Source of the DNA: Paraflavitalea soli
GTDB taxonomy: Bacteria; Bacteroidota; Bacteroidia; Chitinophagales; Chitinophagaceae
DNA length: 64,000 nucleotides
Direction of reading: 5' to 3'
Assembly (NCBI RefSeq): GCF_003555545.1
Contig: NZ_CP032157.1
Span: 4,592,546 to 4,656,545 of the forward strand
Below, in pieces: positions 24,494 to 49,459 of the stretch. The notes below the pieces were generated by a model. It saw only the letters and a program-made list of their open reading frames with translations. It had not been told where the DNA came from and ran no database searches. Within the stretch, counting starts at the first letter, position 1; each line of letters opens with the position of its first letter. The translations under genes and the position numbers were made by a program.

Positions 24494-27400
24494 TTAATGA
24501 TCGGGACCGGGAGGAAAAACAATGGTCACGGTAGTTCCTTTTTGAAAGATACTTTCGACAGCAATATGGCCTTTAAGCTGGGCCACAAAATCGCGTACGA
24601 TCCTGTATCCCAGGTTGCCGGTGCTATCTGTTGCAAAGAGGTTCTTTTCATCTTCCAGCCGGCTTTGCAGCACCTGCAATTCTGTATAGGTCATGCCTTC
24701 TCCGGTGTCTGCCACTTTAATGACCAATCGATCGGACGCATCCAGGTACCCCTTTAAACTGATCTGGCCATTCTCTGTGTGTTTATTGGCGTTATCTACC
24801 AAGTTGTGCAATATTATTTTCAACAATTGCTTGTCTGTCCACGCACTGATATCGGCTGTTATCTCCATTTCCAGGGAGTTCTTATTCCAGTTGAGCACAT
24901 TACGGAAAAATGTTTCAGCCTCCTGGAACAGCTCCTTCACATATACATGTTCATAGCGCATCCTGAACCCCTCCTGCTGGGTGGTGAGCCATATAAGGAA
25001 CTCTTTGGTAAAGGTATCGAGTTGGTCGGACGACTTTTTCAATTCCGCGGTAAGGCTGGTAAGCGACTGATTGTTGCCCGCTATCAGGGCATTGTGTAAC
25101 TGGTTGCTGAGCATATTCATAAACCGCAGGGGAGAACGAATATCGTGCAGGATCACAGAAGTGAGTTTATCTTTCAACAGGTTGCTCTGGTGAAGGCTTT
25201 CTTGCGACACTTTTAATTCTCCCACGGTGTGTTCCAATTGCTGCACAGTAATGGCCTGCTCCTGTGTTCTTTGTTGTACCTGCTGCTCCAGGTATAGTTC
25301 TCTTTCCTTTGCTTTTTTGGCCTTCTGCTTGTGGAGGGAATAAATACCCGCTGTGATGAGCAGGATCAGCATCAGCAATAGCAATAACCTGAAAGCCACG
25401 GTTTCATAAAAATGGGGAGTTATGAAAAATGGCAGTGTGGCGCTGGTATAATCATGGGCACCAAATCCACTGCGCAGACGGACCTCCAGGGCATAGTTAC
25501 CAGGTGGAAGAAAATTGATAACGATGGTGTTGTCTGCAGGAACGGGCGCCCATAGTTTATCGACTCCGGCGATCCTGTATTCGGGAAAGAAATTGTCGCT
25601 ATTGCCAAAGAATGGGGAAGATATGCGGAAACTCATTTTGTTGGAGCCGGCCCGGAATACGAGTTTATCCTGGTAGCTGATCTCGCGGGCATCTTCCATG
25701 ATCTTGTCGATGTGAATGGCTTGTACGGGTAAAATGGGCTTTACCAGGCGGGGATCGAACCATACCAGGCCTTTCATGGAGGGAAGGGAAAACCTGCCAT
25801 CCTGCAAGCGGATGCCTACGGGGCTGCTGCCGCCATTAAATTCATTGGTGCCAAATCCATCATTCTTATCATAATAATGATAGTATACCTGCAGCTCATT
25901 GTTACGCACCCAGGCTTCCAGTGAGGCTTTTGACGCCTGAAACAATCCTTTGTTGGTTGGGATCCAGAAAAAACCGTTGTCGTCTTCCATAAAACAATGG
26001 GCAGTAGCCAGGTTGTGGTTCCTGTCCTGGGGCAAGGCAATAAAACGTCCATTCCTGTAGGTATAGAACCCCTGGCCATAGGTACCGATCCAGACAGAGC
26101 TGTCCTTAGCGCGGTATATATGGCGTACATAGTTTTTGGCCATTTCGGGAATGGCGGTCAGGGAATTGGTTCTTTTATTGTAGGCAAAAAGACCTACAGT
26201 AGTACCGATCCAGATGCAGGTATCATTTAAAAAGAACATGCACTGGGAACGATCCAACGGGGTATAATCTGCATACAGCACTTTCAGGCGCCCACTGTCT
26301 ATCCTGGCAAGGCCATTGTTGGTGCACAACCAGATGGTGCCCTTATCATCCTGCTGCAGGCTTTTGAGGTGTGTATCCTTCACCAGCCATCGTTTCTGCT
26401 CCTGTAGCTGGTTGTTCATACAAAAGAGGGTATCCCCTCCCATAAACCAGATGTGCTGATCCCTGTCTTTCAACATGGTATTAAATACCTGGAGATTGTA
26501 ATTATAGACCCTTTGGACTGTATCCTTTGAGAACAGCAAACCATTGGAAGTAAATACCTGACCTGGTTGTATTTCGAGGGTGGCTGCAAAACTATTTTCC
26601 ATCCCCTCTTTGTAGCTCCTTACAACAAAGGGTTGTTCCCGGATGATATAAAATCCATTGGTACTGGTTAGAAAGAAGTATAGTTTATACCTCTCTGAAT
26701 AACAGATATGCCTGGCCAGGGGCAATGGCAGGTCCTTCAACAGCAGGGAGGCTGTTACAGTCTGGCCATCAAACTGAAGCGCGTATAACTTATTGTTACA
26801 TTGGAGGAAAGTACCTGATCTGTCGGAACAAAACCTGAGCTGGTTTAAGTCTATGTGTTTTTTCCCTGCAAAGGCAGGCAATATTTTTTGCAGAGAGAGG
26901 GTAATAGCCGTCTTTTTTCCATGCTGATAAACGCGTATTCCACCTATGGAATCGATTGCAAAGAGGGTGTTTTGAATATAGAAATGGGCCCTGTCTTCCA
27001 GGTCGTAGTAATCTACCGGTGAGAAATAACCATCCTTAAACCAGGAGATATCGTGCCCGCTTACAAACCAGGCTGCCCCATTGGCGTCGCTGTAAAATTC
27101 GTGCATGGGCAAGTAATGCTTTGAAGCACGCACCTCTGTTATTATCCTGGTAGAATCCTCTTTGCTTGCAAAATATTTCCGCAGGTCGAGGATATAGCCA
27201 TGCTGGCTCATCAGGAAATTATGACGGGCTTTGAGCCCTGGCACAGGTAGTATAGCGCCATTGCTGTCAATAACGTGAACGCCTGCACTTTCATCGGCAA
27301 AAAATACTTTGTCTTGGGATACTGCATTGAGTGAATACAGTCTGTCGGAGGTAAGGGAAGGCACATTGCCTGTATAGAAATGCCGGAAATCCCTCCCATC

Positions 27401-27628
27401 AAATTTTATCAAGCCGAACTGAGTGGTAAACCAGCAATATCCTTTCAGGTCTTCAAAAAAGCCGGTCACATCGTTGGAGGGTAAACCGTTTTCATCATTG
27501 TAAGGCATTACATAATAGCCTTTGAAGGATGGGGGTAACTGCTGCCGGGCCATGACGCCGGCGGGGAGTACCATGAAAAGGTATAATGTGACAAGCTGGC
27601 AAAGCCGCTGAAATAATTCCATAGGCAT
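24494..27628 (-). CDS. Propeller-type sensor histidine kinase (paralogue 2), HisKA type
   Basis: 1044 residues. A signal peptide (ends GVMARQ) is followed by propeller repeats (KGYCWFTTQFGLIKFDGRDF, GTIWLCTNNGLARID, SSVWIGTYGQGFYTYRNGRF), a Y_Y_Y domain (PEYRIAGVDKLWAPVPADNT), and a transmembrane helix near 745-768. A coiled coil, a HisKA-like dimerisation segment with SVILHDIRSPLRFMNML (His828) and an HATPase domain (HNLVDNANKHTENG, VADTGEGM, GYRIVRDFV) follow. It ends FPPGPDH. No receiver domain is attached, so it needs a separate partner; the NarL-type regulator at 30858 is the only one in the run. It is strongly similar along its whole length to the kinase at 27668, 39 bases away, so the two arose by tandem duplication. 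Confidence 0.93.
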   Translation of the reverse strand: MPMELFQRLCQLVTLYLFMVLPAGVMARQQLPPSFKGYYVMPYNDENGLPSNDVTGFFEDLKGYCWFTTQFGLIKFDGRDFRHFYTGNVPSLTSDRLYSLNAVSQDKVFFADESAGVHVIDSNGAILPVPGLKARHNFLMSQHGYILDLRKYFASKEDSTRIITEVRASKHYLPMHEFYSDANGAAWFVSGHDISWFKDGYFSPVDYYDLEDRAHFYIQNTLFAIDSIGGIRVYQHGKKTAITLSLQKILPAFAGKKHIDLNQLRFCSDRSGTFLQCNNKLYALQFDGQTVTASLLLKDLPLPLARHICYSERYKLYFFLTSTNGFYIIREQPFVVRSYKEGMENSFAATLEIQPGQVFTSNGLLFSKDTVQRVYNYNLQVFNTMLKDRDQHIWFMGGDTLFCMNNQLQEQKRWLVKDTHLKSLQQDDKGTIWLCTNNGLARIDSGRLKVLYADYTPLDRSQCMFFLNDTCIWIGTTVGLFAYNKRTNSLTAIPEMAKNYVRHIYRAKDSSVWIGTYGQGFYTYRNGRFIALPQDRNHNLATAHCFMEDDNGFFWIPTNKGLFQASKASLEAWVRNNELQVYYHYYDKNDGFGTNEFNGGSSPVGIRLQDGRFSLPSMKGLVWFDPRLVKPILPVQAIHIDKIMEDAREISYQDKLVFRAGSNKMSFRISSPFFGNSDNFFPEYRIAGVDKLWAPVPADNTIVINFLPPGNYALEVRLRSGFGAHDYTSATLPFFITPHFYETVAFRLLLLLMLILLITAGIYSLHKQKAKKAKERELYLEQQVQQRTQEQAITVQQLEHTVGELKVSQESLHQSNLLKDKLTSVILHDIRSPLRFMNMLSNQLHNALIAGNNQSLTSLTAELKKSSDQLDTFTKEFLIWLTTQQEGFRMRYEHVYVKELFQEAETFFRNVLNWNKNSLEMEITADISAWTDKQLLKIILHNLVDNANKHTENGQISLKGYLDASDRLVIKVADTGEGMTYTELQVLQSRLEDEKNLFATDSTGNLGYRIVRDFVAQLKGHIAVESIFQKGTTVTIVFPPGPDH

Positions 27629-27667
27629 TGGTTGGTATAAATATAATTCAAAGCCCGGAAAAACGGG

Positions 27668-30600
27668 TTATAATATGGGAAGCAGGATGGTAACTGTGGT
27701 TCCCGTCTCCAACGCACTCTCTACTATAATATGGCCATTTAATCTGGCAATAAAATCCCGGATGATCCGATAGCCGAGGTTGCCGGCCCCATCGGTTACG
27801 CCCAGGCTGCTTTCATCTTCCAAACCTTTTTGCAAAGTGTGTAATTCGGAGGTGGTCATACCCCTTCCGGAATCGGCCACTTTGATGGACACCTGATCTT
27901 TATCAATGGCTGTTACGCTTAATCGAATAGTACCATTGTCAGTATGTTTATTGGCGTTGTCGATGAGGTTGTGCAATATGATCTTTAACAGCTGCCGGTC
28001 GGTCCAGGCACTGATATCTTCTTTTCCTTCTATTTCCAGGGTATTGTTGTTTCCGCTAAGGACATTGCGGTAAAACTCTTTGGCCTCGCGGAACAACTGA
28101 AAGATATCTATGTACTCCTTTCGCAGTTTGAATCCGGTTTGCTGGGTGGTGAGCCATACCAGGAATTCGCGGGTGAATACGTCCAGCTGATCAGAGGATT
28201 TTTTAAGTTCGGCGGTCATAGCAGCAAGGGCCTGGGTATCGCCGGCGGCAAGGGCCCCGTTCAATTGGTTACACAGCATGTTCATAAATCGCAGGGGCGA
28301 CCGGATATCATGGAGGATGATGGTGGTAAGCCTGTCTTTCAGCAGGTTGCTCTTGTGCAGGTTTTCTTCCAGTTCTTTCAGTTCGGTTACCGTACGTTTG
28401 AGTACCTGTGTCCTGTCTGCGACCTGCTGTTCCAATATTTGGGCTCTTTCCTGTTCGTCCCTGATACGGTTCTTATGGTACCTGGAAATAACAACTGCGA
28501 TCAATGCAAGGGCGATCAGGGTAGCTGCCAATTTGAATACCAGTGTTTGATAAATATAGGGGGCAATGGAAAATGATTGTTCCTGGGTTGTATAGGCGCC
28601 TGGCCCAAATCCATTGCGCAGGCGAATTTCGAGGGTATATTTCCCGGGCGACAGGTAATTGATTGGGATTGAATTATCAGCTGCTACGGGTGTCCATGAC
28701 TGATCCACTCCTTTGACCTTGAATTCAGGGACGAAATTGGCTGTATTGCCAAAGAAAGGGGAGGAAATATGGAACCTGAACCTATGGGAACCAGCAGGCA
28801 GCCTGATAGGACCGGTAAATTTTATTTCCTGTGTATCGAGGGCTACCCGGTCTACCTGGATCTTTGCCATTGGCATGGCGGGCTTTACCTGCTGCGGCCT
28901 GAACCATACCATGCCTTTCATGGAAGGAAGGGAGAAGGTGCCATTCTGCAGGCGGATACCCACTGGACTGGAGCCACCGTTAAACTCATTGGAGGCAAAG
29001 CCATCGAATTTGTTGTAATAATGGTAATAGACTTCCTGCTCTTTATTACTCAGCCAGCCCTCCAGGGCTGATCTGGCCACCTGGAACAATCCTTTATTGG
29101 TGGGTATCCAGAAAAAACCGCTGCTATCTTCCATAAAGCAATGGGCTGTTGCCAGGTAATGGTTTTTATCCTGCGGCATTGCTATAAAGTGACCGTTCCT
29201 CCAGGTATAAAATCCTTGCCCATAGGTGCCGATCCAAATGGTGCCATCTGTTGCCCGATACACGTGCCGCACATAAACGCCACGCATTTCACGGTGGGGG
29301 GTAATGGTATTTCTTTGGAGATTATAAGTAAAAAGGCCGATGGTAGTACCAAGCCAGAAAGAGGTATCATTTAGCATGAACAGGCATTGGGTACGTCGGA
29401 GGGCTTTATTATCACGGTACACGAAACGCATCTCACCGTTATCAATCCTGGCCAGGCTGTTGCTTGTACAATACCAGATTGTTCCTTTGCTGTCCTGCAG
29501 GATGCTGGCCAGGTCAGTATAAGGTACCACCCAATAATTCAATGGCTGTAACCGGTTATCCATACAAAAAAGGGTATCCTTCAACAGTATCCAGATGTGT
29601 TGATCCTTATCTTTTAGCAAAGCATTGCTGCCTACATAATCCAATGGATAACGACGGAAGGCAGTGTCTTTTGAAAAGATCACGCCATTGGTTGTCAATA
29701 CCTGCATGGGTTGTATTTCTACAGCGGCAGTAAAATTATTTTGAATACCCTCCTTATCCAGGAAGCTACGAACGGTAAATGGTTGTTCCCTTACGAGGTA
29801 AAAACCATTGGTCATGGTTCGAAATATATAAAGCCTGTGGCGCTGGGAATAGTAGGCTTCTGTGGACAGGGGGATGCGCAGATCGTGCAGGAGTAAACTG
29901 GAGTGCAGGTTTTGTCCATCAAAACTGAGGGCCCAAAGCTGTCGCTGGTATTGCAGAAAGGTACCTGTTGGGTTGGAGCTGAACTTCAGTTGATGGAGAT
30001 CGGGCTGTTTGTCTCCTTTCAGCGCGGGCAACAGCGTCTTGAGGAAAAAGGTGGCTGCTGATCTTTTACCCGCCTCATATAGGGTGATCATTCCTGCGGG
30101 GTTTACTGTAAACAAGCTCTTCTTTATCCGGAAATGGGCTTCCCGTTCAACATCATAGGCATCTACGGGCAGAAAATGTCCTTGTTGAAAATAGCTGAGG
30201 TGCTTCCTGCTCAGGAACCAGGCATTTCCGTTGGTATCGGGGTAGAACTCATGCATGGCGTGGAGGTATTCAGGGTCTGTCAATACCTTCATGATCCTGA
30301 CTGAATCTTCGGCCTTCCTGAAATAGGGGCGCAGGTCAAGGATAAAGCTGTGTTGGCTCATCAGGAAATTCTGGCCTGCGCGCAGGCCCGGCATTGGTTT
30401 TACCTGGCCTGCTGCATCTATCATATGAACGGCCTTGCTCTCATCGCTAAAGAACAGGCTGTCGGTGGAGCGGCCGTTGAGTGAATAAAGCCTGTTGAAG
30501 GTGAGGGTAGGTACATTGCCTGTATACCAGGTCCTGAACTCTCTTCCATCAAATCTTACCAGACCAAACTGGGTGGTAAACCACAAATAGCCCTGGTGGT

Positions 30601-30778
30601 CTTCAAAAAACCCGGTGATGTCATTGGAAGGCAATCCTTGCTCATCATCATAATGGGTGCAGTGGTGGGTATCAAAAGATGGAAGTGGCTGCTGGCGGGC
30701 TGAAAGGCGGCCAGGGCATAGCAGAAAAAGGTATAATGTGGCAAACAAGCCATGCCAGGGCAATGATCTCATAGGCAC
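27668..30778 (-). CDS. Propeller-type sensor histidine kinase (paralogue 1), HisKA type
   Basis: 1036 residues with the same architecture as the next gene: signal peptide ending RLSARQ, propeller (QGYLWFTTQFGLVRFDGREF, GTIWIGTYGQGFYTWRNGHF), Y_Y_Y domain (PEFKVKGVDQSWTPVAADNS), membrane helix near 750-770, coiled coil, HisKA-like segment TTIILHDIRSPLRFMNML with His823, and ATPase motifs HNLIDNANKHTDNG, VADSGRGM and GYRIIRDFI. Differences from its twin are spread along the length and include the linker and the sensing propeller, so the two may read different ligands while sharing output. It starts 79 bases after the NarL-type regulator stop and is probably in that operon. Confidence 0.93.
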   Translation of the reverse strand: MPMRSLPWHGLFATLYLFLLCPGRLSARQQPLPSFDTHHCTHYDDEQGLPSNDITGFFEDHQGYLWFTTQFGLVRFDGREFRTWYTGNVPTLTFNRLYSLNGRSTDSLFFSDESKAVHMIDAAGQVKPMPGLRAGQNFLMSQHSFILDLRPYFRKAEDSVRIMKVLTDPEYLHAMHEFYPDTNGNAWFLSRKHLSYFQQGHFLPVDAYDVEREAHFRIKKSLFTVNPAGMITLYEAGKRSAATFFLKTLLPALKGDKQPDLHQLKFSSNPTGTFLQYQRQLWALSFDGQNLHSSLLLHDLRIPLSTEAYYSQRHRLYIFRTMTNGFYLVREQPFTVRSFLDKEGIQNNFTAAVEIQPMQVLTTNGVIFSKDTAFRRYPLDYVGSNALLKDKDQHIWILLKDTLFCMDNRLQPLNYWVVPYTDLASILQDSKGTIWYCTSNSLARIDNGEMRFVYRDNKALRRTQCLFMLNDTSFWLGTTIGLFTYNLQRNTITPHREMRGVYVRHVYRATDGTIWIGTYGQGFYTWRNGHFIAMPQDKNHYLATAHCFMEDSSGFFWIPTNKGLFQVARSALEGWLSNKEQEVYYHYYNKFDGFASNEFNGGSSPVGIRLQNGTFSLPSMKGMVWFRPQQVKPAMPMAKIQVDRVALDTQEIKFTGPIRLPAGSHRFRFHISSPFFGNTANFVPEFKVKGVDQSWTPVAADNSIPINYLSPGKYTLEIRLRNGFGPGAYTTQEQSFSIAPYIYQTLVFKLAATLIALALIAVVISRYHKNRIRDEQERAQILEQQVADRTQVLKRTVTELKELEENLHKSNLLKDRLTTIILHDIRSPLRFMNMLCNQLNGALAAGDTQALAAMTAELKKSSDQLDVFTREFLVWLTTQQTGFKLRKEYIDIFQLFREAKEFYRNVLSGNNNTLEIEGKEDISAWTDRQLLKIILHNLIDNANKHTDNGTIRLSVTAIDKDQVSIKVADSGRGMTTSELHTLQKGLEDESSLGVTDGAGNLGYRIIRDFIARLNGHIIVESALETGTTVTILLPIL

Positions 30779-39998: not shown

Positions 39999-40670
39999 AT
40001 GACCCCAAAGTTCCAGGATAAAGCATATTGGATGACAGCCTTCCGGGAAGGAAAAGGGGGAACTTTTGAACAGGTGTTCAAAGAGCACCACCGGTCATTG
40101 TGTTACCTGGCGGTGAAATATGGCCTGGATACTGAAGAAGCCGAGGATATAGTAGCAGATACTTTTACCAAACTATGGCATGGCCGGGCGCAATTCAGCG
40201 ACGAAGGGCATATTAAAGGCTTTCTGCTCACGACTACCCGGAATGCCTGCGTAAACCTGGTGAAACAGAAACAACGCAGGGTTGCCTCCAATAATGAATT
40301 GTCCTACCTGCTGGCCGACAGGGAGGAGGATTTTCTGCGCAAAATGGTAGAAACGGAGTTATTGAAAAAATTATATCCTTACATAGAAAAACTGCCGAAG
40401 AAATGCCGGGCGGTATTTGAGCAGGTTTATTTTGAAGGCGCCAGTACCGAAGAGGCTGCCAACAGACTGGGCATTTCACCCCGTAATGTATTGAACCAGA
40501 AGGCAAGGGCCATCCATTTGCTGAAAGGTAAAATTCTCCTGATCGCATTCATATATTGCCTGGTACATATATATAATGGTCATTCTACAGAGAAAATAAA
40601 AAAATCAGAAAATCTTTTTGTCAAAGAGTCCTCACTCGTTGTTTATATAAATGACTCAGCAACGAGTTAA
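39999..40670 (+). CDS. ECF RNA polymerase sigma factor
   Basis: 223 residues. Region 2 (EQVFKEHHRSLCYLAVKYGL, EEAEDIVADTFTKLWHG) and region 4 (LPKKCRAVFEQVYFEGASTE, LGISPRNVLNQKARAIHLLK) are clear. It is the sigma factor of the second FecR-type cassette, followed 33 bases later by the FecR gene and then by an STN-bearing SusC and a SusD. After region 4 there is a hydrophobic stretch (ILLIAFIYCLVHIYNG) and a hydrophilic tail, longer than usual, which might contact membrane or FecR; that is inference. Confidence 0.93.
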   Translation: MTPKFQDKAYWMTAFREGKGGTFEQVFKEHHRSLCYLAVKYGLDTEEAEDIVADTFTKLWHGRAQFSDEGHIKGFLLTTTRNACVNLVKQKQRRVASNNELSYLLADREEDFLRKMVETELLKKLYPYIEKLPKKCRAVFEQVYFEGASTEEAANRLGISPRNVLNQKARAIHLLKGKILLIAFIYCLVHIYNGHSTEKIKKSENLFVKESSLVVYINDSATS

Positions 40671-40703: not shown

Positions 40704-41921
40704 ATGGAAAAAGTCGAAAAAATATTATACCTGATCAATAAGTATCGGGATCTGACTTTGAGCCAGGAGGAAGATGATGAGTTGCAGCGTTGGCTTGCTG
40801 AATCAGAAGAAAATCGCTCTTTGCTTGCTGAATTAACGGATCAATCGGTTTTAGCTGACAAACTGAAGGTGTATACCCAGATAGACAGCCAGGCCGTTTG
40901 GGAGAAAACACTCCAGCAGATAGATCCTGCCAATAAAGTAATTCCGCTTTATCCTGTTCAACGGGTGTGGCGGAAATATGCTACTGCCGCAGCTGCTGCT
41001 GTTGTGGTGCTCAGCCTGTCTGTAGCTGGTTGGTTATACTTCAAACCAGCAGTGAATCAGCCAATTGTTGAAAAACAACCTGCCAGTGAATCAAAAGAAG
41101 ATATCACCACAGGGCTTTCAAAAGTGACGCTGGTACTGAGCGATGGTAAAAAAGTAGTGCTTGATAATCCCGGTGATCAGCAAGTGATCACACAGGGGGA
41201 TGTTACTATATCAAGGGCCAATGGGCAGATCGCTTATAAAAGCCCGAATGGCCAGGATCCTGTTGGATCAACAGTTCTTTACAATACTGTATCTACCCCC
41301 CGGGGCGGACAGTTCCAGGTTATCCTTCCGGATGGAAGTATAGTTTGGCTCAATGCGGCTTCATCATTGCGTTTTCCTATAGCCTTCGCCGGTGGAGAAA
41401 GAAACGTTTCGCTCACCGGTGAGGCTTTTTTCGAAATTGCTCACATGACAAACAAGCCTTTCAAAGTGGCTGTTGAAGATGGTAGCACCGTAGAAGTATT
41501 GGGAACGCGGTTTAATATTAATGCCTATACAGATGATGCACTGGTGAGGACCACCTTGTTGCAAGGGTCTGTAAAACTGACCACTAAAGCGGCTGCTCAA
41601 CAGTTACTTACACCCGGTCAGGAAGCATTGGTTGATAAGAGTGGCAAAGTAGCAGGTGTAAAAGAGGTAGGTGTGGATATTACAAAAGCGGTTCCCTGGA
41701 GAGCTGGCTATATTAGCCTTGAAGGAGATATCAAGACAGTGATGCAGGAAATCGGACGCTGGTATAATCTCAAGATTGAATATGCCGGTAAGATCTCAAC
41801 AAAGTCATTAAAAGGTCAAATTTCCCGTGGGTACCCGATAAAAGATGTGTTGAGCATATTACAAGATCAGGGCATCAAATTGAAATTCGACGAAAAAGAT
41901 CAAAAGATCGTATTGATATAG
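40704..41921 (+). CDS. FecR-family anti-sigma factor
   Basis: 405 residues. The cytoplasmic N-terminal region (KILYLINKYRDLTLSQEEDD) is followed by a transmembrane helix at about 93-113 (AAAAAVVVLSLSVAGWLYF). The periplasmic FecR domain (TPRGGQFQVILPDGSIVWLN, GEAFFEIAHMTNKPFKVAVE, VLGTRFNINAYT) and a C-terminal DUF4974 domain (GDIKTVMQEIGRWYNLKIEY) complete it. It should receive the signal from the STN domain of the SusC at 42183 and control the sigma factor at 39999. The three genes are in the order sigma, FecR, SusC, the classical arrangement. Confidence 0.94.
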   Translation: MEKVEKILYLINKYRDLTLSQEEDDELQRWLAESEENRSLLAELTDQSVLADKLKVYTQIDSQAVWEKTLQQIDPANKVIPLYPVQRVWRKYATAAAAAVVVLSLSVAGWLYFKPAVNQPIVEKQPASESKEDITTGLSKVTLVLSDGKKVVLDNPGDQQVITQGDVTISRANGQIAYKSPNGQDPVGSTVLYNTVSTPRGGQFQVILPDGSIVWLNAASSLRFPIAFAGGERNVSLTGEAFFEIAHMTNKPFKVAVEDGSTVEVLGTRFNINAYTDDALVRTTLLQGSVKLTTKAAAQQLLTPGQEALVDKSGKVAGVKEVGVDITKAVPWRAGYISLEGDIKTVMQEIGRWYNLKIEYAGKISTKSLKGQISRGYPIKDVLSILQDQGIKLKFDEKDQKIVLI

Positions 41922-42182: not shown

Positions 42183-45100
42183 GTGAAAAGAACCACTATT
42201 TTTTTATTAACCATTACTTGCTTGCTTTTGAGCGTCGCCGGATCAGCTCAACAGGTTCTTCCTTCCCAACAACGACTGATCACTATTTCCCGGAATAATG
42301 TACCGCTCGAAACTATCTTTTCAGCCATTGAAAGCAAAACAGTTTACCGGTTTATTTATGATCCTGCCCTACTCATTAATGCGAGAAGGGTGAGCCTGCA
42401 TGTAACAAAGGCCACCATAGAGGAAGTGACTGCCATTATTTTTGCTGACCAGCCTTTTAGCTATAAGTTTACGAATGAAAGCGTGCAGCTTTTACCAAAG
42501 AGTGCCGGCACCGTTGCCCCTCCTGCAACAATCGCGATCAAAGGAAGGATCATTACCAAAACGAGCGAACCCATTCCCAGCGCTACGATCATGGCGCTCC
42601 GTAGCAGGCAGCAAACCGCTACTGGTGAGGATGGAACATTCCAGCTTGAAAACCTGTTGCCTGGTGACAGCCTTATTGTGAGCAGTGTGAGTTATGAGAC
42701 CGGGGGGATCAGGCTAACCGGCAAACCCGATCTTTTGATCACCCTGGAACTACTGGCCAAGGAATTATCAGAAGTGGTAGCCACCGGCTACCAAAAACAA
42801 AAGGTGGGTGAATTCACAGGATCCTTTTCCAAAGTAAACAATGAATTGTTGAACTATAAGGTAGGCACCAATGTGCTGGACCGGCTCAATGGCATAGCCA
42901 GCGGCGTATTGTTCAATGCTAATATTCAACCCGGCGACCCTACCAATCCATCAAGCATCAGCATACGCGGCCGGAGCACCATTTTCGCCAATCCCGAACC
43001 ACTGATCATCCTGGATAATTTTCCCTATACAGGTGATGTAGGTAATATTAATCCCAACGATATTGAAAGCATCACCATACTAAAGGATGCAGCCGCTGCT
43101 TCCATCTGGGGAGCGCTCGCTGCCAATGGGGTAATTGTTATTACTTCCAAAACGGGCAAATACAACCAGGACATCAAACTTTCTTTCAACACCAATGTAA
43201 CGGTAGGCGAAAAACCAAACCTGTACTATGAGCCCATTATGAGCTCCAACGATTATATCGACGTAGAGCAGTTCCTGTTTAAGAACGATCATTACCTGGG
43301 GCGGGAAGCCAATCCCCAACATCCAGCTTTATCGCCCGCCGTAGAAATTATGATCCAGGAGCGGGATGGGCTGATCTCTTCTCCGAAAGCCACCAGCCTG
43401 CTGAATACTTTGCGGCAGCAGGACAGACGTAAAGATGAGGAACAATATTTATATCGCCACAGTATCAACCAGCAATATGCGCTGAGCGCCAGTGGAGGCG
43501 GCAAGCAGAACCAGTATTATTTTTCAGCCGGGTACGATAAAAACCTGAGCAGCCAGGTGGGCAACCAATACGATCGTATTACCCTGAATGCTAACAATAC
43601 CTATGCCTGGTGGAAGCGGAAATTGGAACTCACTACAGGGATCATTTTTTCGGCCACCCAGGGACGTAATACTACCATTAGTTTTGGAAGTCGCTATCCC
43701 TATAACCAACTGGCAGATGCCAACGGCCAACCCATGGCGCTTTATACTACCCTGCGCAAATCCTATATTGATACTGCCGGTGGTGGCCAACTGCTGGACT
43801 GGAATTACCGGCCACTGGATGAACTACGGCTGGCGAATGATAAAACGATCGTTACCGACTACCGCATCAATGCCGGGTTGAAATATTCCATTATCCCCGG
43901 CTTGAACGCCAATATACTCTATCAATACAATAAGGGGTTTTCAGAAGAGCGGAACCTGCATAGCCGGCAATCGTTTTTCACCCGCGACCTGATTAACCAA
44001 TATACACAAATCAATGGATCATCCATCACCACACCGATACCCTATGGTGATATCCTCGACAAGTATAATAACACTTACCAGGCACACAATGTACGGGTGC
44101 AGGCCGATTATACCCATCGTTGGAATGCACAACATGCCTTCAATGCTTTTGCGGGCGCAGAAGTAAGAAGCTTCGCCAATCAATTTACAAGTACTCGCAT
44201 GTATGGATACGATCCGGACCGGCTCACCAGCATACCGGTCAATTATACGGCCACCTTTCCACAGTATTCCAGCCCGTCGTCGGAAGCCAGGATACCCTAC
44301 CAGGACAAAACCCGCACTACTACCGACCGCTACCTCTCTTATTTTGTGAATGCCGCCTATACGCTTCACCAGCGTTATATCCTATCGGCCAGCGCCCGCA
44401 AAGATGAATCGAATATTTTTGGAGTAAAGGCCAACCAAAAGGGCGTGCCGCTCTGGAGCGCCGGCCTGAGCTGGGAGATCAGCAAGGAAGCTTTTTTTCA
44501 TCAGTCCCATTGGCTTCCCTATCTGCGACTACGCCTTACACATGGTTATAATGGCAATGTAGACAGAAAGGTATCAGCCTTTACCACTGCCATCATCCAG
44601 AATCAAAATAACTGGGGTGCTACCAGCGGAGACATTATCAACCCGCCCAACCCGGCCCTGCGCTGGGAGCAGGTGCGCATGAGTAATATTGGCATTGATT
44701 TTTCCAGCCTTCACAATACCATCGGTGGCAGTATTGAATATTATTCCCGCAAAGCCGAAGACCTGATCGGCAATAGTCCGCTTGACCCAACTACCGGCAA
44801 TCCGCTTTTTCGGGGTAATACGGCCAATATGAAGGGGCATGGCATTGACATAACCCTCCAAACACAAAACATCAACAAAAAAGACTGGAAGTGGATGAGC
44901 ACTATCCTCTTTAGCCATACGGTGGATGAAATAACAGAATACAAAGTTCAGCAAAACGTTATAGGTGTTTACCTGATTTCAGATCTTCTTAACCCGTTGA
45001 AAGGAAAGCCCGTATATGCCGTGTATAGTTTACAATGGATGGGGCTTGATACACTGGGCGATCCGCAGGGATGGCTAGGCGATAAAAAGAGCAAAGATTA

Positions 45101-45644
45101 TGGTGCCATCCGCAATTCTTCCGATTTCAACAACCTGCTATACAACGGTCCAGCCAATCCCACCTTCTTTGGCAGTGTACGTAATACCATTAATTGGAAG
45201 CAACTCCAACTTTCCTTTAATATTACCTGGAAGGCCGGTTATTATTTCAGGAGGACATCCATTAATTACAATGAGCTATTCAATTCAAGCGCCAGCGGTC
45301 ATACTGATTTTAGCTTGCGCTGGCAAAAGCCAGGTGACGAAAACAACACTTATGTTCCCTCCATGCAATATCCCAATAATATTTTACGCGATCTTTTTTA
45401 CCAATATTCCAGTATCCTGGTGGAAAAGGGAGATCATGTACGCCTGCAGGATATCAGGTTGAGCTATAATTGCAGTCAACAAATGCTCCAAAGGCTTCCC
45501 ATCCAGGATTTACAATTCTATCTATATGCCAATAACATCGGCATCTTGTGGAGGGCGAATCATCAGGATATTGATCCGGATAATATTGGCGGTTACCCTG
45601 CGCCACGCACCATTGCTGCTGGCATCAAAATAGATTTCAAATAA
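42183..45644 (+). CDS. SusC-family TonB-dependent transporter with STN domain
   Basis: 1153 residues from a GTG start (GTG AAA AGA ACC). A signal peptide ends LLSVAGSAQ. An STN domain at about 30-108 (RNNVPLETIFSAIESKTVYR) is followed by a CarboxypepD_reg-like domain (IAIKGRIITKTSEPIPSATI), the SusC linker EVVATGYQKQKVGEFTGSFS, a plug (SISIRGRSTIFANPEPLIIL, ILKDAAAASIWGALAANGVI), and the barrel ending TIAAGIKIDFK. The STN domain and the upstream FecR/sigma pair show that uptake is coupled to gene activation. The SusD partner begins 5 bases after the stop. The GKPVYAVYSLQW segment near the C-terminal part is common in peptide-type SusC proteins, but the ligand is unknown. Confidence 0.95.
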   Translation: MKRTTIFLLTITCLLLSVAGSAQQVLPSQQRLITISRNNVPLETIFSAIESKTVYRFIYDPALLINARRVSLHVTKATIEEVTAIIFADQPFSYKFTNESVQLLPKSAGTVAPPATIAIKGRIITKTSEPIPSATIMALRSRQQTATGEDGTFQLENLLPGDSLIVSSVSYETGGIRLTGKPDLLITLELLAKELSEVVATGYQKQKVGEFTGSFSKVNNELLNYKVGTNVLDRLNGIASGVLFNANIQPGDPTNPSSISIRGRSTIFANPEPLIILDNFPYTGDVGNINPNDIESITILKDAAAASIWGALAANGVIVITSKTGKYNQDIKLSFNTNVTVGEKPNLYYEPIMSSNDYIDVEQFLFKNDHYLGREANPQHPALSPAVEIMIQERDGLISSPKATSLLNTLRQQDRRKDEEQYLYRHSINQQYALSASGGGKQNQYYFSAGYDKNLSSQVGNQYDRITLNANNTYAWWKRKLELTTGIIFSATQGRNTTISFGSRYPYNQLADANGQPMALYTTLRKSYIDTAGGGQLLDWNYRPLDELRLANDKTIVTDYRINAGLKYSIIPGLNANILYQYNKGFSEERNLHSRQSFFTRDLINQYTQINGSSITTPIPYGDILDKYNNTYQAHNVRVQADYTHRWNAQHAFNAFAGAEVRSFANQFTSTRMYGYDPDRLTSIPVNYTATFPQYSSPSSEARIPYQDKTRTTTDRYLSYFVNAAYTLHQRYILSASARKDESNIFGVKANQKGVPLWSAGLSWEISKEAFFHQSHWLPYLRLRLTHGYNGNVDRKVSAFTTAIIQNQNNWGATSGDIINPPNPALRWEQVRMSNIGIDFSSLHNTIGGSIEYYSRKAEDLIGNSPLDPTTGNPLFRGNTANMKGHGIDITLQTQNINKKDWKWMSTILFSHTVDEITEYKVQQNVIGVYLISDLLNPLKGKPVYAVYSLQWMGLDTLGDPQGWLGDKKSKDYGAIRNSSDFNNLLYNGPANPTFFGSVRNTINWKQLQLSFNITWKAGYYFRRTSINYNELFNSSASGHTDFSLRWQKPGDENNTYVPSMQYPNNILRDLFYQYSSILVEKGDHVRLQDIRLSYNCSQQMLQRLPIQDLQFYLYANNIGILWRANHQDIDPDNIGGYPAPRTIAAGIKIDFK

Positions 45645-45649
45645 CGGTT

Positions 45650-47032
45650 ATGAATAGTATACAAAAGCTTTACCGGGTTCTTTGTATTGCTGCCCTGGCA
45701 ATGGCCATCAGTTGCCATAAAAAAGAGTTCCTGGAAGCCAAACCCGATAGTGACCTGTTTGTACCTACAACTTTGGAAGATTGCCAGGCCCTGCTGGACA
45801 ATGAGGACATTATGAATGAAACCCCGGTGCTGGGTGAACTCTCGGCCGACAATTTCTACTTACCTTATGCCTTCTGGCGTGGCCTGAATACCAAAGAAAA
45901 AAATGCTTATAGGTGGCTGCCTGCTACTTTTGATGGTTTAACAGGTGATATCAGCGACTGGAACGCTCCTTATAAACAGGTATTTTATGCCAATGTAATA
46001 CTGGAGGCCCTGAGTCACCTACCCATCACAGCTGCTAATGAAGGTAACTGGAGGGCTATTAAGGGCGCGGCGCTTTTTGCCCGGGCCCATGCTTTTTACC
46101 AGGTAGCGCAGGTCTTTGCCCCCGTCTATAACCCCAATAGCCCTGGCGAAAAACTGGGTATTCCCTTGCGGCTTACACCAGGCGTAGATGAAAAATCTGT
46201 GCGCTCTTCTGTACACCAAACCTATAGCAGGATCCTTACAGATCTGCTGGAAGCCGGCAGTCTGTTGCCCGCAGAAATTCCTTTCAATAACCGCAACAGA
46301 TCATCCAGGCCAGCTGCCTTTGCGTTGCTGGCCAGGACTTACCTGAGCATGGACAATTATCCCCGTGCCAAGGTGTATGCAGACAGTTGTTTGCTATTGC
46401 ACAATACCCTCATCAGGTATGATACCCTGAATACACAGATAAATAATCCCTTCAATAAATTCAATATAGAGACCATTTACCAAAGCAGGTTTGTGACCAC
46501 CAATGTGTTGCGGGGTATTACCGTAAGCAATTGTATTGTGGATACCAACCTGTATCGCTCCTATGCGGCCAATGACCTGCGCAGTGTTATTTTTTACCGC
46601 ATCCATAGTTCCGGCAATATTAATCCCAAGATCGGTTATACCGGCATCAATCAATTGTTTACCGGCCTGGCTACCGATGAAGTATACCTTATACGGGCAG
46701 AATGCCTGGCGCGCATGGGCCATGTACAGGAAGCTATGGATGATCTGAATGCCCTGCTGAAGAACCGGTGGAGGGCCAATAGCTTTGTACCCTTTGCTGC
46801 CGCTACTGCGGATATCGCCTTGCAGAAAATTATGGAGGAGAGAAGAAAAGAACTGCCTTTTCGCGGCCTGCGCTGGACGGACCTGCGGCGGCTCAATAAA
46901 AATGGGGCCAATATCACCTTGAAGCGTATGCTCGATAACCCTTATCAACTGGCTCCCGGCGATCTGCGCTATACTTTATTATTCCCACCAGATGTGATGA
47001 ATCTGAGCAATATGGAGCAAAATCCGCGGTAA
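45650..47032 (+). CDS. SusD/RagB-family outer-membrane lipoprotein
   Basis: 460 residues. Signal peptide with lipobox AMAISC (Cys about 22), then KKEFLEAKPDSDLFVPTTLE, an N-terminal SusD variant, TPR-like helices (IKGAALFARAHAFYQVAQVF, RPAAFALLARTYLSMDNYPR), and the C-terminal region (ATDEVYLIRAECLARMGHVQ, RGLRWTDLRRLNKNGANI, FPPDVMNLSNMEQNPR). It is the lid and binding subunit for the SusC encoded 5 bases upstream. It is shorter than the SusD at 3329 and belongs to a different subgroup. Last gene of the sigma-FecR-SusC-SusD cassette. Confidence 0.93.
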   Translation: MNSIQKLYRVLCIAALAMAISCHKKEFLEAKPDSDLFVPTTLEDCQALLDNEDIMNETPVLGELSADNFYLPYAFWRGLNTKEKNAYRWLPATFDGLTGDISDWNAPYKQVFYANVILEALSHLPITAANEGNWRAIKGAALFARAHAFYQVAQVFAPVYNPNSPGEKLGIPLRLTPGVDEKSVRSSVHQTYSRILTDLLEAGSLLPAEIPFNNRNRSSRPAAFALLARTYLSMDNYPRAKVYADSCLLLHNTLIRYDTLNTQINNPFNKFNIETIYQSRFVTTNVLRGITVSNCIVDTNLYRSYAANDLRSVIFYRIHSSGNINPKIGYTGINQLFTGLATDEVYLIRAECLARMGHVQEAMDDLNALLKNRWRANSFVPFAAATADIALQKIMEERRKELPFRGLRWTDLRRLNKNGANITLKRMLDNPYQLAPGDLRYTLLFPPDVMNLSNMEQNPR

Positions 47033-47369
47033 AAAAACGCTATTCAATGTATTGGGATACCCCCATAAAAAAAGGTCCCGCCAGAGGCGGGACCGCACTA
47101 ATCAAATACCATTAACCATTAAACCTTATCCTATGAAAACATGAATTTAGAACATTTTTTGATAAGGGGAAAATTTACGTATCAACAATTTGGCTAACAA
47201 CTGTTTACAACCTACATTATCGATTGATTAACATTTTGTTAGTTGCTAAACCGTTTTTTTTAGCGGTACATCAAAAAAACGCCAAAACCATTGATTTTCC
47301 GTATTTACACAGGTGATCCGGTGTTTTCAATAAGATTGTTACAGTGGTAATAATTGTTATATAAACGTT
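47033..47369. other. Convergent gap with terminator and leader-like motif
   Basis: 337 bases between the SusD stop and the leftward DUF6520 stop. It contains the hairpin at 47074-47094 and, on the + strand, CCATTAACCATTAAACC (47109-47125) followed by an 18-codon frame without family resemblance. The remainder is A+T-rich with no feature seen. Confidence 0.5.
47067..47094 (-). terminator. Intrinsic terminator (leftward reading)
   Basis: Stem ggtcccgcc (47074-47082) with ggcgggacc (47086-47094), loop aga. On the minus strand it is followed by a run of seven T, so it is a classic terminator for transcripts from the DUF6520 side; on the plus strand it could still stop SusD messages weakly. Confidence 0.75.
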
Positions 47370-47648
47370 TTATTTTGAAGCCCGGCTGCTGTGCATATCG
47401 ATCCAGATACCCATCCTGCAGGCTGCAAATACATTGGGTTGCCCCACAGGATGATAGTAGGTACAAATGATGGTATCAGGATCGCAATCATAATCCAATC
47501 CAAAAACTCCCTGCGCCTCATACACTCCATTATTCAAATGGTATTGCTGAGCAGTCTGACAGGTTAAACAATCTGGCCTTGTAGCAAAGGCGCTGGTAAG
47601 GGCGGCGACCAGGGCCAGCCCCATGAGCGAAAATTTCATCTTCTTCAT
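47370..47648 (-). CDS. DUF6520-family small exported Cys-rich protein
   Basis: 92 residues. A signal peptide (MKFSLMGLALVAALTSAFA) is followed by about 70 residues with five Cys: a CxxC pair (DCLTC) right after cleavage, then single Cys in DYDCDP, IICTYY and FAACRM. This is the pattern of DUF6520, a small Bacteroidota family without known function. The start may be the first or fourth codon (both ATG). The gene lies 87 bases after a MauE/DoxX-type membrane protein gene on the same strand, a likely operon. The CxxC and the redox-type neighbour suggest disulfide chemistry in the periplasm; this is inference. Confidence 0.75.
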   Translation of the reverse strand: MKKMKFSLMGLALVAALTSAFATRPDCLTCQTAQQYHLNNGVYEAQGVFGLDYDCDPDTIICTYYHPVGQPNVFAACRMGIWIDMHSSRASK

Positions 47649-47735
47649 AAATGGTTTTTTTAATTATTGCCTACTCTTTTGTACAGGTTTTCGGCTTCGC
47701 CTGAAAACGTTAAACTCTCAGCACATTGGTTCTGA

Positions 47736-48161
47736 TTATGAAATTTTCAGCTTCTCTTTTCTTTTGAGGATCATACCTGCCAGCGCTACCCCTACGAAGA
47801 AGAGGTTGAATACTAAATGCTGGGGCCATGACAGGTTTTCTATTACGCCGCCGCAGGAACAAGGAATTCTGCCAAATGTCTTTAGCAATACCAGCAATGT
47901 ATATAGTGTGAACAATAGCATTAGTACCAGTGACGCGCGGAAACCGATGAGTTGTGTTTTATCAAACATTAAAAAACCTGAAATAATGATCTCTACGGCG
48001 GGGAGCGTCCAGACGAGTATGGGTGTCATCCAGTTGGGCAAAGGCTGGTTGTTCATTTGCCCCGTAAAAGTTTTGAAGTCGAGCCACTTGCTTACACCCG
48101 TGTACACAAAAAGCAGGATCAACAAGGACGATAGTATCTCAATTACAATCTTTCGTTTCAT
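47736..48161 (-). CDS. MauE/DoxX-family redox-associated membrane protein
   Basis: 141 residues from ATG 48161 (MKRKIVIEILSSLLILLFVY); the frame is open 20 codons further but without family resemblance. Four transmembrane helices are apparent (about 8-27, 45-65, 75-93, 113-132). A loop carries GRIPCSCGGVIENLSWPQHL, with the CxCGG motif typical of Bacteroidota MauE/DoxX proteins. MauE proteins are needed for disulfide formation in methylamine dehydrogenase, and relatives accompany thiol-redox partners. Here the only partner is the Cys-rich DUF6520 protein downstream, so this may be a two-gene thiol relay or maturation unit of unknown output. Confidence 0.8.
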   Translation of the reverse strand: MKRKIVIEILSSLLILLFVYTGVSKWLDFKTFTGQMNNQPLPNWMTPILVWTLPAVEIIISGFLMFDKTQLIGFRASLVLMLLFTLYTLLVLLKTFGRIPCSCGGVIENLSWPQHLVFNLFFVGVALAGMILKRKEKLKIS

Positions 48162-48913: not shown

Positions 48914-49459
48914 ATGGCACTACTTGACAAGCAACTAAGAGTTAAAACATCCACTATTCCCGGAGCAGGTAAAGGACTTTTCACGCAAAAACCTATCGCG
49001 AAAGGAACTCGTATTGTTGAATACAAAGGGAAAGCTTCCACATGGAAAGATGTGAACCATGATGAAGGCAACAACGGCTATATCTATTATGTAAGCCGCA
49101 ACTTTGTACTGGATGCACAACACGACAAAACAGCACTGGCACGCTATGCCAATGATGCCCGCGGCATTGGCCGGGTAAAAGGCATCACCAACAACTGCAC
49201 CTATGTGACTGAAGGCAACCGGGTATTTATTGAAGCTGCCAGGGACATTCCTGCCGGCGGAGAAATACTGGTGAGCTATGGCCCTGAATACTGGCAGGTA
49301 ATTAAACATAACATGAAGGTTGACGCGGATGCTGAAAAAGAGCGACTGAAAAAGGCGAAACGTGCAAAAGCAGGCAAAACCACTCCCACCAAAACGAAGG
49401 CTAAAAAGAAAACCACCAGCCGCACTACCAGGAGGTCTACATCGCTTGCTAACGCCTGA
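48914..49459 (+). CDS. SET-domain protein with lysine-rich tail
   Basis: 181 residues. Residues about 8-132 are a compact SET domain: the start TIPGAGKGLFTQKPIAKGTR binds S-adenosylmethionine, the NNCTYVTEGNRVFIEAARDI block stands where eukaryotic enzymes have NHSCxPN, and GEILVSYGPEYW is the closing tyrosine motif. SET enzymes methylate lysines. Residues about 145-181 are almost only Lys, Arg, Thr, Ser and Ala (LKKAKRAKAGKTTPTKTKAK), like a histone H1 or HU-like tail, suited to bind nucleic acid or to be modified. The substrate is unknown. The next small gene follows at 37 bases, so the SET gene may be in an operon with it and YdcF. Confidence 0.85.
   Translation: MALLDKQLRVKTSTIPGAGKGLFTQKPIAKGTRIVEYKGKASTWKDVNHDEGNNGYIYYVSRNFVLDAQHDKTALARYANDARGIGRVKGITNNCTYVTEGNRVFIEAARDIPAGGEILVSYGPEYWQVIKHNMKVDADAEKERLKKAKRAKAGKTTPTKTKAKKKTTSRTTRRSTSLANA

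Follow-up and report, generated by a model that had tools for sequence, protein, structure and literature searches.

A MauE-type membrane protein and its hypervariable exported neighbour at the convergent end of SusC/SusD loci in Chitinophagaceae: a possible maturation factor and transporter partner

MauE, which acts with MauD in methylamine utilisation, is needed to mature a disulfide-rich subunit, and the general disulfide oxidases of the DsbB and VKOR types carry two periplasmic cysteine pairs. Few outer-membrane importers of Bacteroidota are as numerous as the SusC/SusD (SusCD) transporters, most of which, to our knowledge, have no known substrate; those encoded in FecIR-SusCD loci are known mainly for nutrient uptake. 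According to passages of PMC7782687, transporters, SusCs among them, signal through their STN domains to anti-sigma factors. In the locus described here, a MauE-type protein and a small exported protein of the DUF6520 family, which we call the client, face such a SusCD system. A survey of the literature by titles and the beginnings of abstracts turned up no naming of a MauE-client partner at SusCD loci. The locus lies in a 64,000-nucleotide stretch of the Paraflavitalea soli genome, referred to below as the window, in which genes were called by simple open reading frame (ORF) rules and signal peptides were judged by hydrophobicity. Its features are:

39999-40670, plus strand: ECF sigma factor (Pfam Sigma70_r2 49.4 bits, Sigma70_r4_2 37.3 bits)
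40704-41921, plus strand: FecR-type anti-sigma factor (Pfam FecR 62.3 bits, FecR_C 39.7 bits)
42183-45644, plus strand: SusC-type TonB-dependent transporter (Pfam Plug 45.2 bits, CarbopepD_reg_2 41 bits, STN 23 bits)
45650-47032, plus strand: SusD-type lipoprotein gene, from a clade with five members in its own genome (Pfam SusD-like_3 103 bits)
47074-47094, minus strand: terminator-like stem with a T-run in the direction of the client (pattern scan; 9 pairs, 8 of them G-C)
47370-47648, minus strand: small exported DUF6520 client, 92 aa (PF20130, alignments, AlphaFold)
47736-48161, minus strand: MauE/DoxX-type membrane protein with a PCSCGG loop between TM3 and TM4 (PF07291, AlphaFold)
48914-49459, divergent from MauE: gene for a SET-domain protein

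With sigma factor, FecR, SusC and SusD genes in one direction, the locus is of the ECF sigma/FecR-controlled SusCD type, with the qualification that the STN-like N-terminus of SusC, at 23 bits, falls below the Pfam cut-off of 28.4. It shares with known loci of this type the sigma factor, FecR, a SusC with plug and STN-like domain, and SusD; what is added here is MauE and a convergent, hypervariable exported client. The preliminary description of this DNA had regarded the pair as self-contained, with a terminator of its own and a long upstream region. The upstream region is indeed long (~750 nt up to the divergent SET-domain gene). The pair is not self-contained, however, since it faces the sigma-FecR-SusC-SusD locus and forms its convergent end. 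As to the terminator, a stem with a T-run in the client's direction does exist, but it lies ~275 nt beyond the client stop and ~40 nt beyond the SusD stop, between the two convergent genes, and is therefore not plainly the pair's own; the pattern scan of the region found 6 such sites where 4.1 were expected. No exact match to a Bacteroidota promoter-like pattern was found near the pair. Elsewhere, positions 24494-30778 of the window encode two tandem, similar-looking proteins of ~1040 aa each.

The MauE ORF of 141 aa scores 116.7 bits against PF07291 (gathering cut-off 27), which places it in the same Pfam family as the MauE of methylamine utilisation. The likeness to that system is the logic of a dedicated client. 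The differences are that the client here is small, mostly beta and tied to SusCD, and that the flanks scanned contain SusC, SusD, FecR, sigma and SET genes and no mau or methylamine dehydrogenase genes. C101 and C103, both in the PCSCGG loop, are the only cysteines of the window MauE, and all 119 MauE proteins of our Chitinophagaceae set carry this CxC motif. A single cysteine pair does not resemble DsbB or VKOR, and a general oxidase of that type was rejected on this count. The AlphaFold model (mean pLDDT 90.4) is helical throughout, and the order of the helices puts the TM3-TM4 and TM1-TM2 loops on one side of the membrane. To judge from the charged termini (MKRK at the N-terminus, RKEK at the C-terminus), this side would be the periplasmic one, the short loops not being decisive. 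A Foldseek search with the model gave no match at E 0.001 or better. The best structural match was NACHO/TMEM35A (Z 12.3, rmsd 2.3 over 117 residues, 20% identity; next row Z 9.4), which differs in being a human protein that assists the assembly of pentameric receptors, and Z values below about 13 among helical bundles may reflect a common arrangement only. VKOR-like chains reached only Z 6.8, among many helical bundles, and were left aside. At two loci of another family (L370 and L392), the MauE beside a two-Cys client reads PCGCGS where others have PCSCGG.

The client ORF lies 87 nt from that of MauE. Its score against PF20130 (28.6 bits) is slightly above the cut-off of 25.4 and assigns it to DUF6520, so that the juxtaposition of a CSCGG-loop MauE and a tiny, exported, Cys-rich DUF6520 protein reported in the preliminary description is real by both Pfam scores and ORFs. 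The protein has a signal-peptide-like N-terminus and, judged by hydrophobicity, a mature part of ~70 aa. Its AlphaFold model contains a block of pLDDT 90–94 over residues 31–80, composed mostly of beta strands. Five cysteines are present, at positions 27, 30, 55, 62 and 77, as had been noted, but the CxxC formed by the first two is a trait of one lineage: among the close relatives in a 26-row alignment, taken from a larger listed set, C55 and C62 occur in 26 of 26, C30 and C77 in 25 of 26, and C27 in 9 of 26. In a 77-row alignment, which omits 16 of the 89 clients adjacent to a MauE (many of these with extra cysteines), C55 and C62 are the only invariant cysteines. The C55-x6-C62 motif falls within the stretch 53–65 of the model, where a disulfide would staple a beta-hairpin. 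L356 lacks both outer cysteines, C30 and C77, a joint loss as expected for a second disulfide. Among the 89 clients, cysteine numbers are mostly even (2 in 69, 4 in 16, 5 in 3 and 8 in 1), and the spacing in the 69 two-Cys clients is x6 in 32, x7 in 29, and 5, 8, 9 or 11 residues in the other eight. The five-Cys clients leave one cysteine unpaired, which counts against the reading that we prefer below.

The preliminary description offered two roles for the DUF6520 protein, an oxidised client or an electron shuttle. In its fullest form the second would have MauE act as a general disulfide oxidase, with the small protein as its DsbA-like electron carrier, as the MauE-type loop and the CxxC of the window protein could suggest. 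We reject the shuttle: CxxC is conserved in just those 9 of 26 relatives, the model is mostly beta and has no thioredoxin fold, and the clients are hypervariable in their mature part and tied to individual SusCD loci, all of which makes this reading very improbable. Among solved structures, the client model gave a best Foldseek E of 3.4 and no Z of 2 or more over 73 aligned chains. Two candidate resemblances were discarded as evidence: a processed quorum-sensing protein at E 0.91, and a sub-cut-off NCBIfam match to a Phr N-terminus, each covering mainly the signal peptide.

How general the pairing is was assessed in 147 Chitinophagaceae genomes. PF20130 matches (E ≤0.01) occur in 56 and MauE matches (E ≤1e-5) in 144, fusions included. 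For 18 of the 27 DUF6520 matches of at least 25.3 bits, a MauE lies within 2.5 kb among the MauE matches listed, and 17 of these 18 genes stand behind MauE on the same strand; three further DUF6520 loci (L035, L036, L047) have an adjoining CxC MauE-like ORF. The co-occurrence that had been proposed is thus found. The link is stronger when taken from the MauE side, because the Pfam model misses many clients, the others scanned falling below the PF20130 cut-off or giving no match. For this purpose 119 MauE loci were kept of 122 places among the matches listed (118 with a frame below 250 aa and one of 345 aa; three with frames of 314–323 aa and the longer fusions listed were left out), and a client was defined as a small exported protein with C-x(3-12)-C, at most 600 nt downstream of MauE on the same strand. 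Such a protein was found at 89 of the 119 CxC MauE loci, compared with 18 of 1123 control tiles drawn from the same loci; the filter missed Pfam DUF6520 matches near L089 and L177. At the other 30 loci, the 600 nt downstream contained an exported thioredoxin-like ORF only (3 loci) or no candidate (26), or was cut by a contig end (1). A candidate client within 2.7 kb was found at 14 of these 30, that of L120 looking spurious and several being separated from MauE by another gene, in some cases thioredoxin-like or propeller-like. This leaves 16 of the 119 loci, including the one truncated by its contig, without a client within 2.7 kb, which again counts against our preferred reading.

Two side observations belong here. 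At L116, L121 and L181 a CxC MauE for which no client was found is followed by two other genes, one small and HTH-like, the other large, with more than 700 aa. At L089, L146, L165, L174 and L376, an exported, possibly propeller-like protein of ~350 aa lies between or beside MauE and client; one such protein, scanned against Pfam, showed no convincing family. Phylum-wide, 23 of 296 genomes gave a client-profile match, many of them weak. Among nine loci outside Chitinophagaceae, MauE adjoins the client in seven (five from one family) and does not in two, and at some of these loci convergent SusD- or TlpA-like genes were seen by eye.

We found nine MauE loci without CxC (L014, L021, L225, which is the same as L257, and L263 to L268), sought with Cys-less MauE queries; L264 is also L258, of Niastella caeni, and L267 is a close copy of L268. 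At eight of the nine the canonical cysteine pair is absent from the client as well. A lone cysteine is found in a second client of L263, and L264 has a client in which two cysteines lie far apart. L021, where a Cys-less MauE accompanies one client with the canonical pair and one without, counts against our preferred reading. At the 119 CxC loci only three adjacent exported proteins, all thioredoxin-like, lack the pair, a near-absence that is partly built in since the pair is part of the client definition. A tree of 126 MauE rows, in which the CxC columns were kept, the bootstrap had not converged and the branch of L014 is long, needs two losses of CxC, one in a clade of eight and one in L014. 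Fisher's test gives 6e-11 on loci and 2e-4 on the two independent losses, values that overstate the evidence because the sequences are related.

The covariation contradicts the notion that MauE and client do nothing together and are neighbours merely through gene order. MauE is common enough in the family, as the 144 of 147 genomes attest, for chance neighbours to arise; given the control tiles and the cysteines that are lost together, we consider that explanation barely credible. Conserved and covarying with those of MauE, as the invariance of C55 and C62 in both alignments and the absence of the pair at eight of the nine loci attest, the client cysteines make the oxidised client the better of the two earlier guesses. 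The retention of MauE in Cys-less pairs points to a role besides thiol chemistry, thiol-free and chaperone-like, which fits the NACHO match, itself possibly a common arrangement only; this retention, too, counts against our preferred reading. Some members of the MauE/DoxX group may, on our analysis, be maturation factors specific to one client.

The convergent SusCD genes of the window are a recurrent feature of the pair. A convergent SusD (opposite strand, within 3.5 kb) lies downstream in 71 of the 89 pairs and at 5 of the 30 other MauE loci, as detected with a SusD profile built from these same loci. In the same position, SusC was found in 36 pairs, a TlpA-like gene in 49, and any of SusC, SusD or TlpA-like in 80; a single pair (L157) has such a match in another position. 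The P. soli genome contains five SusD proteins of the window's clade at 290 bits or more, the next scoring 74, and a convergent client is present at all five loci, each with sigma-, FecR- and SusC-like ORFs ahead of SusD (Pfam was run on those of the window). At L322 a 2.6-kb metallopeptidase-like gene separates SusD from the client. MauE adjoins the client at three of the five, with CxC only in the window's protein and Cys-less forms at L322 and L323; L321 and L324 have a client without an adjoining MauE, which counts against our preferred reading. Fifteen other SusD genes were looked at (30 further matches listed). Beside one of another clade (L332, genome positions 3413500-3418500) we observed a convincing convergent small exported protein with four cysteines, so that clients may serve more SusCD types; L334 has a convergent Cys-less exported protein. 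The ORFs that a loose filter also flagged at L326, the second SusD of L327, L336, L337 and L338 were judged spurious by eye.

A TlpA/thioredoxin-like gene was detected at none of the nine Cys-less loci, five of which are visible only over short flanks, and none was seen at the window locus. The TlpA-like proteins of the L403 and L404 cassettes have a weak or no Pfam score and no clear CxxC by eye, while their clients keep the cysteine pair. The lack of a clear active-site motif in these two and of such a gene in the window locus counts against our preferred reading.

Distance correlations of the Mantel type were calculated over 67 loci for mature client, SusD and MauE. Across all locus pairs the correlation is 0.155 for client and SusD (0 of 300 permutations) and 0.098 for client and MauE (6 of 300); the partial values are 0.137 for client and SusD with MauE fixed (0 of 500) and 0.064 for client and MauE with SusD fixed (35 of 500). 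Over all locus pairs, then, the mature client weakly follows SusD better than MauE, and the effects are small. Within genomes, by contrast, the client-MauE correlation of 0.571 (69 of 2000) is no smaller than the client-SusD value of 0.437 (26 of 2000), which counts against our preferred reading. In the 10 locus pairs whose mature clients are at least 50% identical, SusD identities are 45–99% and MauE identities 40–92%; the background for SusD has a median of 36% and a 95th percentile of 49%, which nine of the ten pairs exceed. Among 11 locus pairs with clients at 42–49%, two (clients 45%) have SusD proteins only 31–32% identical, again an observation on the other side.

Two groups show exchange of the cassette in their DNA. 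The first lies within genome G067, where three loci (L398, L399 and L400) share 2.9–3.1 kb at 95.5–96.7% DNA identity, a block that spans the FecR, sigma and MauE genes as well as the client signal peptide and to which different SusCD genes are attached. The long identity ends at client codon 30, that is, at the end of the signal peptide. Past this break the mature clients are 24–31% identical, alongside MauE proteins at 95–99%, and SusD falls to 39–43%, the TlpA-like protein to 26% (one pair compared) and SusC to short stretches at 69–77%. Between L399 and L400 similarity returns over the first ~130 SusC residues and the DNA upstream of SusC; in the comparison with L398 it returns over hardly more than the first gene's signal peptide and upstream DNA. 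The second group consists of genomes G091 and G021, which are labelled as different genera despite 97% identical flanks. They share 4787 bp at 97.5%, ending 5 nt past the MauE stop, and 3364 bp at 87.5%, from the first ~410 SusC residues and FecR; they differ in the client, the TlpA-like gene, SusD and the C-terminal three fifths of SusC. Constant flanks around a differing client, TlpA-like protein, SusD and SusC are the pattern expected of specificity cassette exchange; the client and its transporter appear to move as a single unit of specificity. G067 also contains a 9.4-kb duplicate of a client-SusCD locus (L401 and L402, 97% identity) at distant places.

What the client does for SusCD can be read in several ways. 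It could belong to SusCD as a subunit, in the periplasm or the outer membrane, or help to assemble it, with a disulfide for stability only. The frequent convergent SusD (71 of 89 pairs) and the covariation of client with SusD are consistent with this, as is the result that no lipobox or release signal was noticed by eye in the client sequences inspected. A mature part so variable beside a nearly invariant MauE is unusual for a mere structural subunit, however, and some loci carry tandem, differing clients; we regard this reading as a possibility to be taken seriously, at somewhat less than even odds.

Alternatively, the client could be a self-produced ligand, released and recognised by the strain's own SusCD, with the STN domain reporting to FecR and the ECF sigma factor as a kin signal or pherotype. 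The constant frame of regulators and client leader (the latter in one group), with variation confined between them to the mature client, SusD and a large part of SusC, resembles the polymorphism of agr and ComQXPA, in which a variable ligand-like gene and receptor part also lie between constant frames. The sigma factor, FecR and an STN-like domain are all in the locus, and signalling from STN to anti-sigma factors is stated for SusCs too in the passages of PMC7782687 cited above. Against this stand the sub-cut-off STN score in the window, the G067 SusC proteins, whose starts show no STN domain by eye, and the association of FecIR-SusCD loci mostly with nutrient uptake. A further difference from agr and ComQXPA is that the receptor here would be an outer-membrane transporter, the client being a hypothetical signal. 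On balance we think this reading doubtful, though worth weighing. Its extension, in which such SusC/SusD-FecR-sigma loci serve polymorphic cell-to-cell recognition, each strain exporting a MauE-matured, disulfide-stapled protein as the specific ligand of its own SusCD and switching type by swapping a client-SusD-SusC cassette, is rather unlikely.

A hypervariable mature part behind a constant leader, as in the first group, could also belong to a small antibacterial protein, the rest of the cassette serving uptake, release or protection. No immunity-like family was found among the 25 listed of the 65 Pfam families that 80 of the 204 neighbours matched, and joint exchange with an importer is not typical of such proteins, which renders this alternative improbable.

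The explanation that we prefer, to which we assign a probability of roughly 0.6, is that MauE matures a hypervariable, SusCD-specific exported protein and that this client acts as the cognate partner of the convergent SusC/SusD. MauE would be a dedicated inner-membrane maturation factor that uses its CxC loop to act on the disulfide of the client encoded behind it, probably by oxidising (or isomerising) the C-x6/7-C pair, and that aids its folding; the client disulfide and the direction of electron flow are inferred here. The mature client would then become the partner, presumably in physical contact, of a SusC/SusD transporter-transducer under its own ECF sigma/FecR pair. The exchangeable specificity cassette would comprise the client, SusD, the greater part of the SusC barrel and, at loci that encode one, the thioredoxin-like protein, and the constant frame MauE, the client signal peptide (in one group), the SusC start and the regulators.

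These observations hint at an undescribed ligand or subunit for the very common SusCD transporters. If our explanation is true, an exported partner that travels with the specificity part would offer a handle on the whole SusCD class, and the undescribed DUF6520 family, together with the many relatives that Pfam misses, would gain a concrete, testable role.
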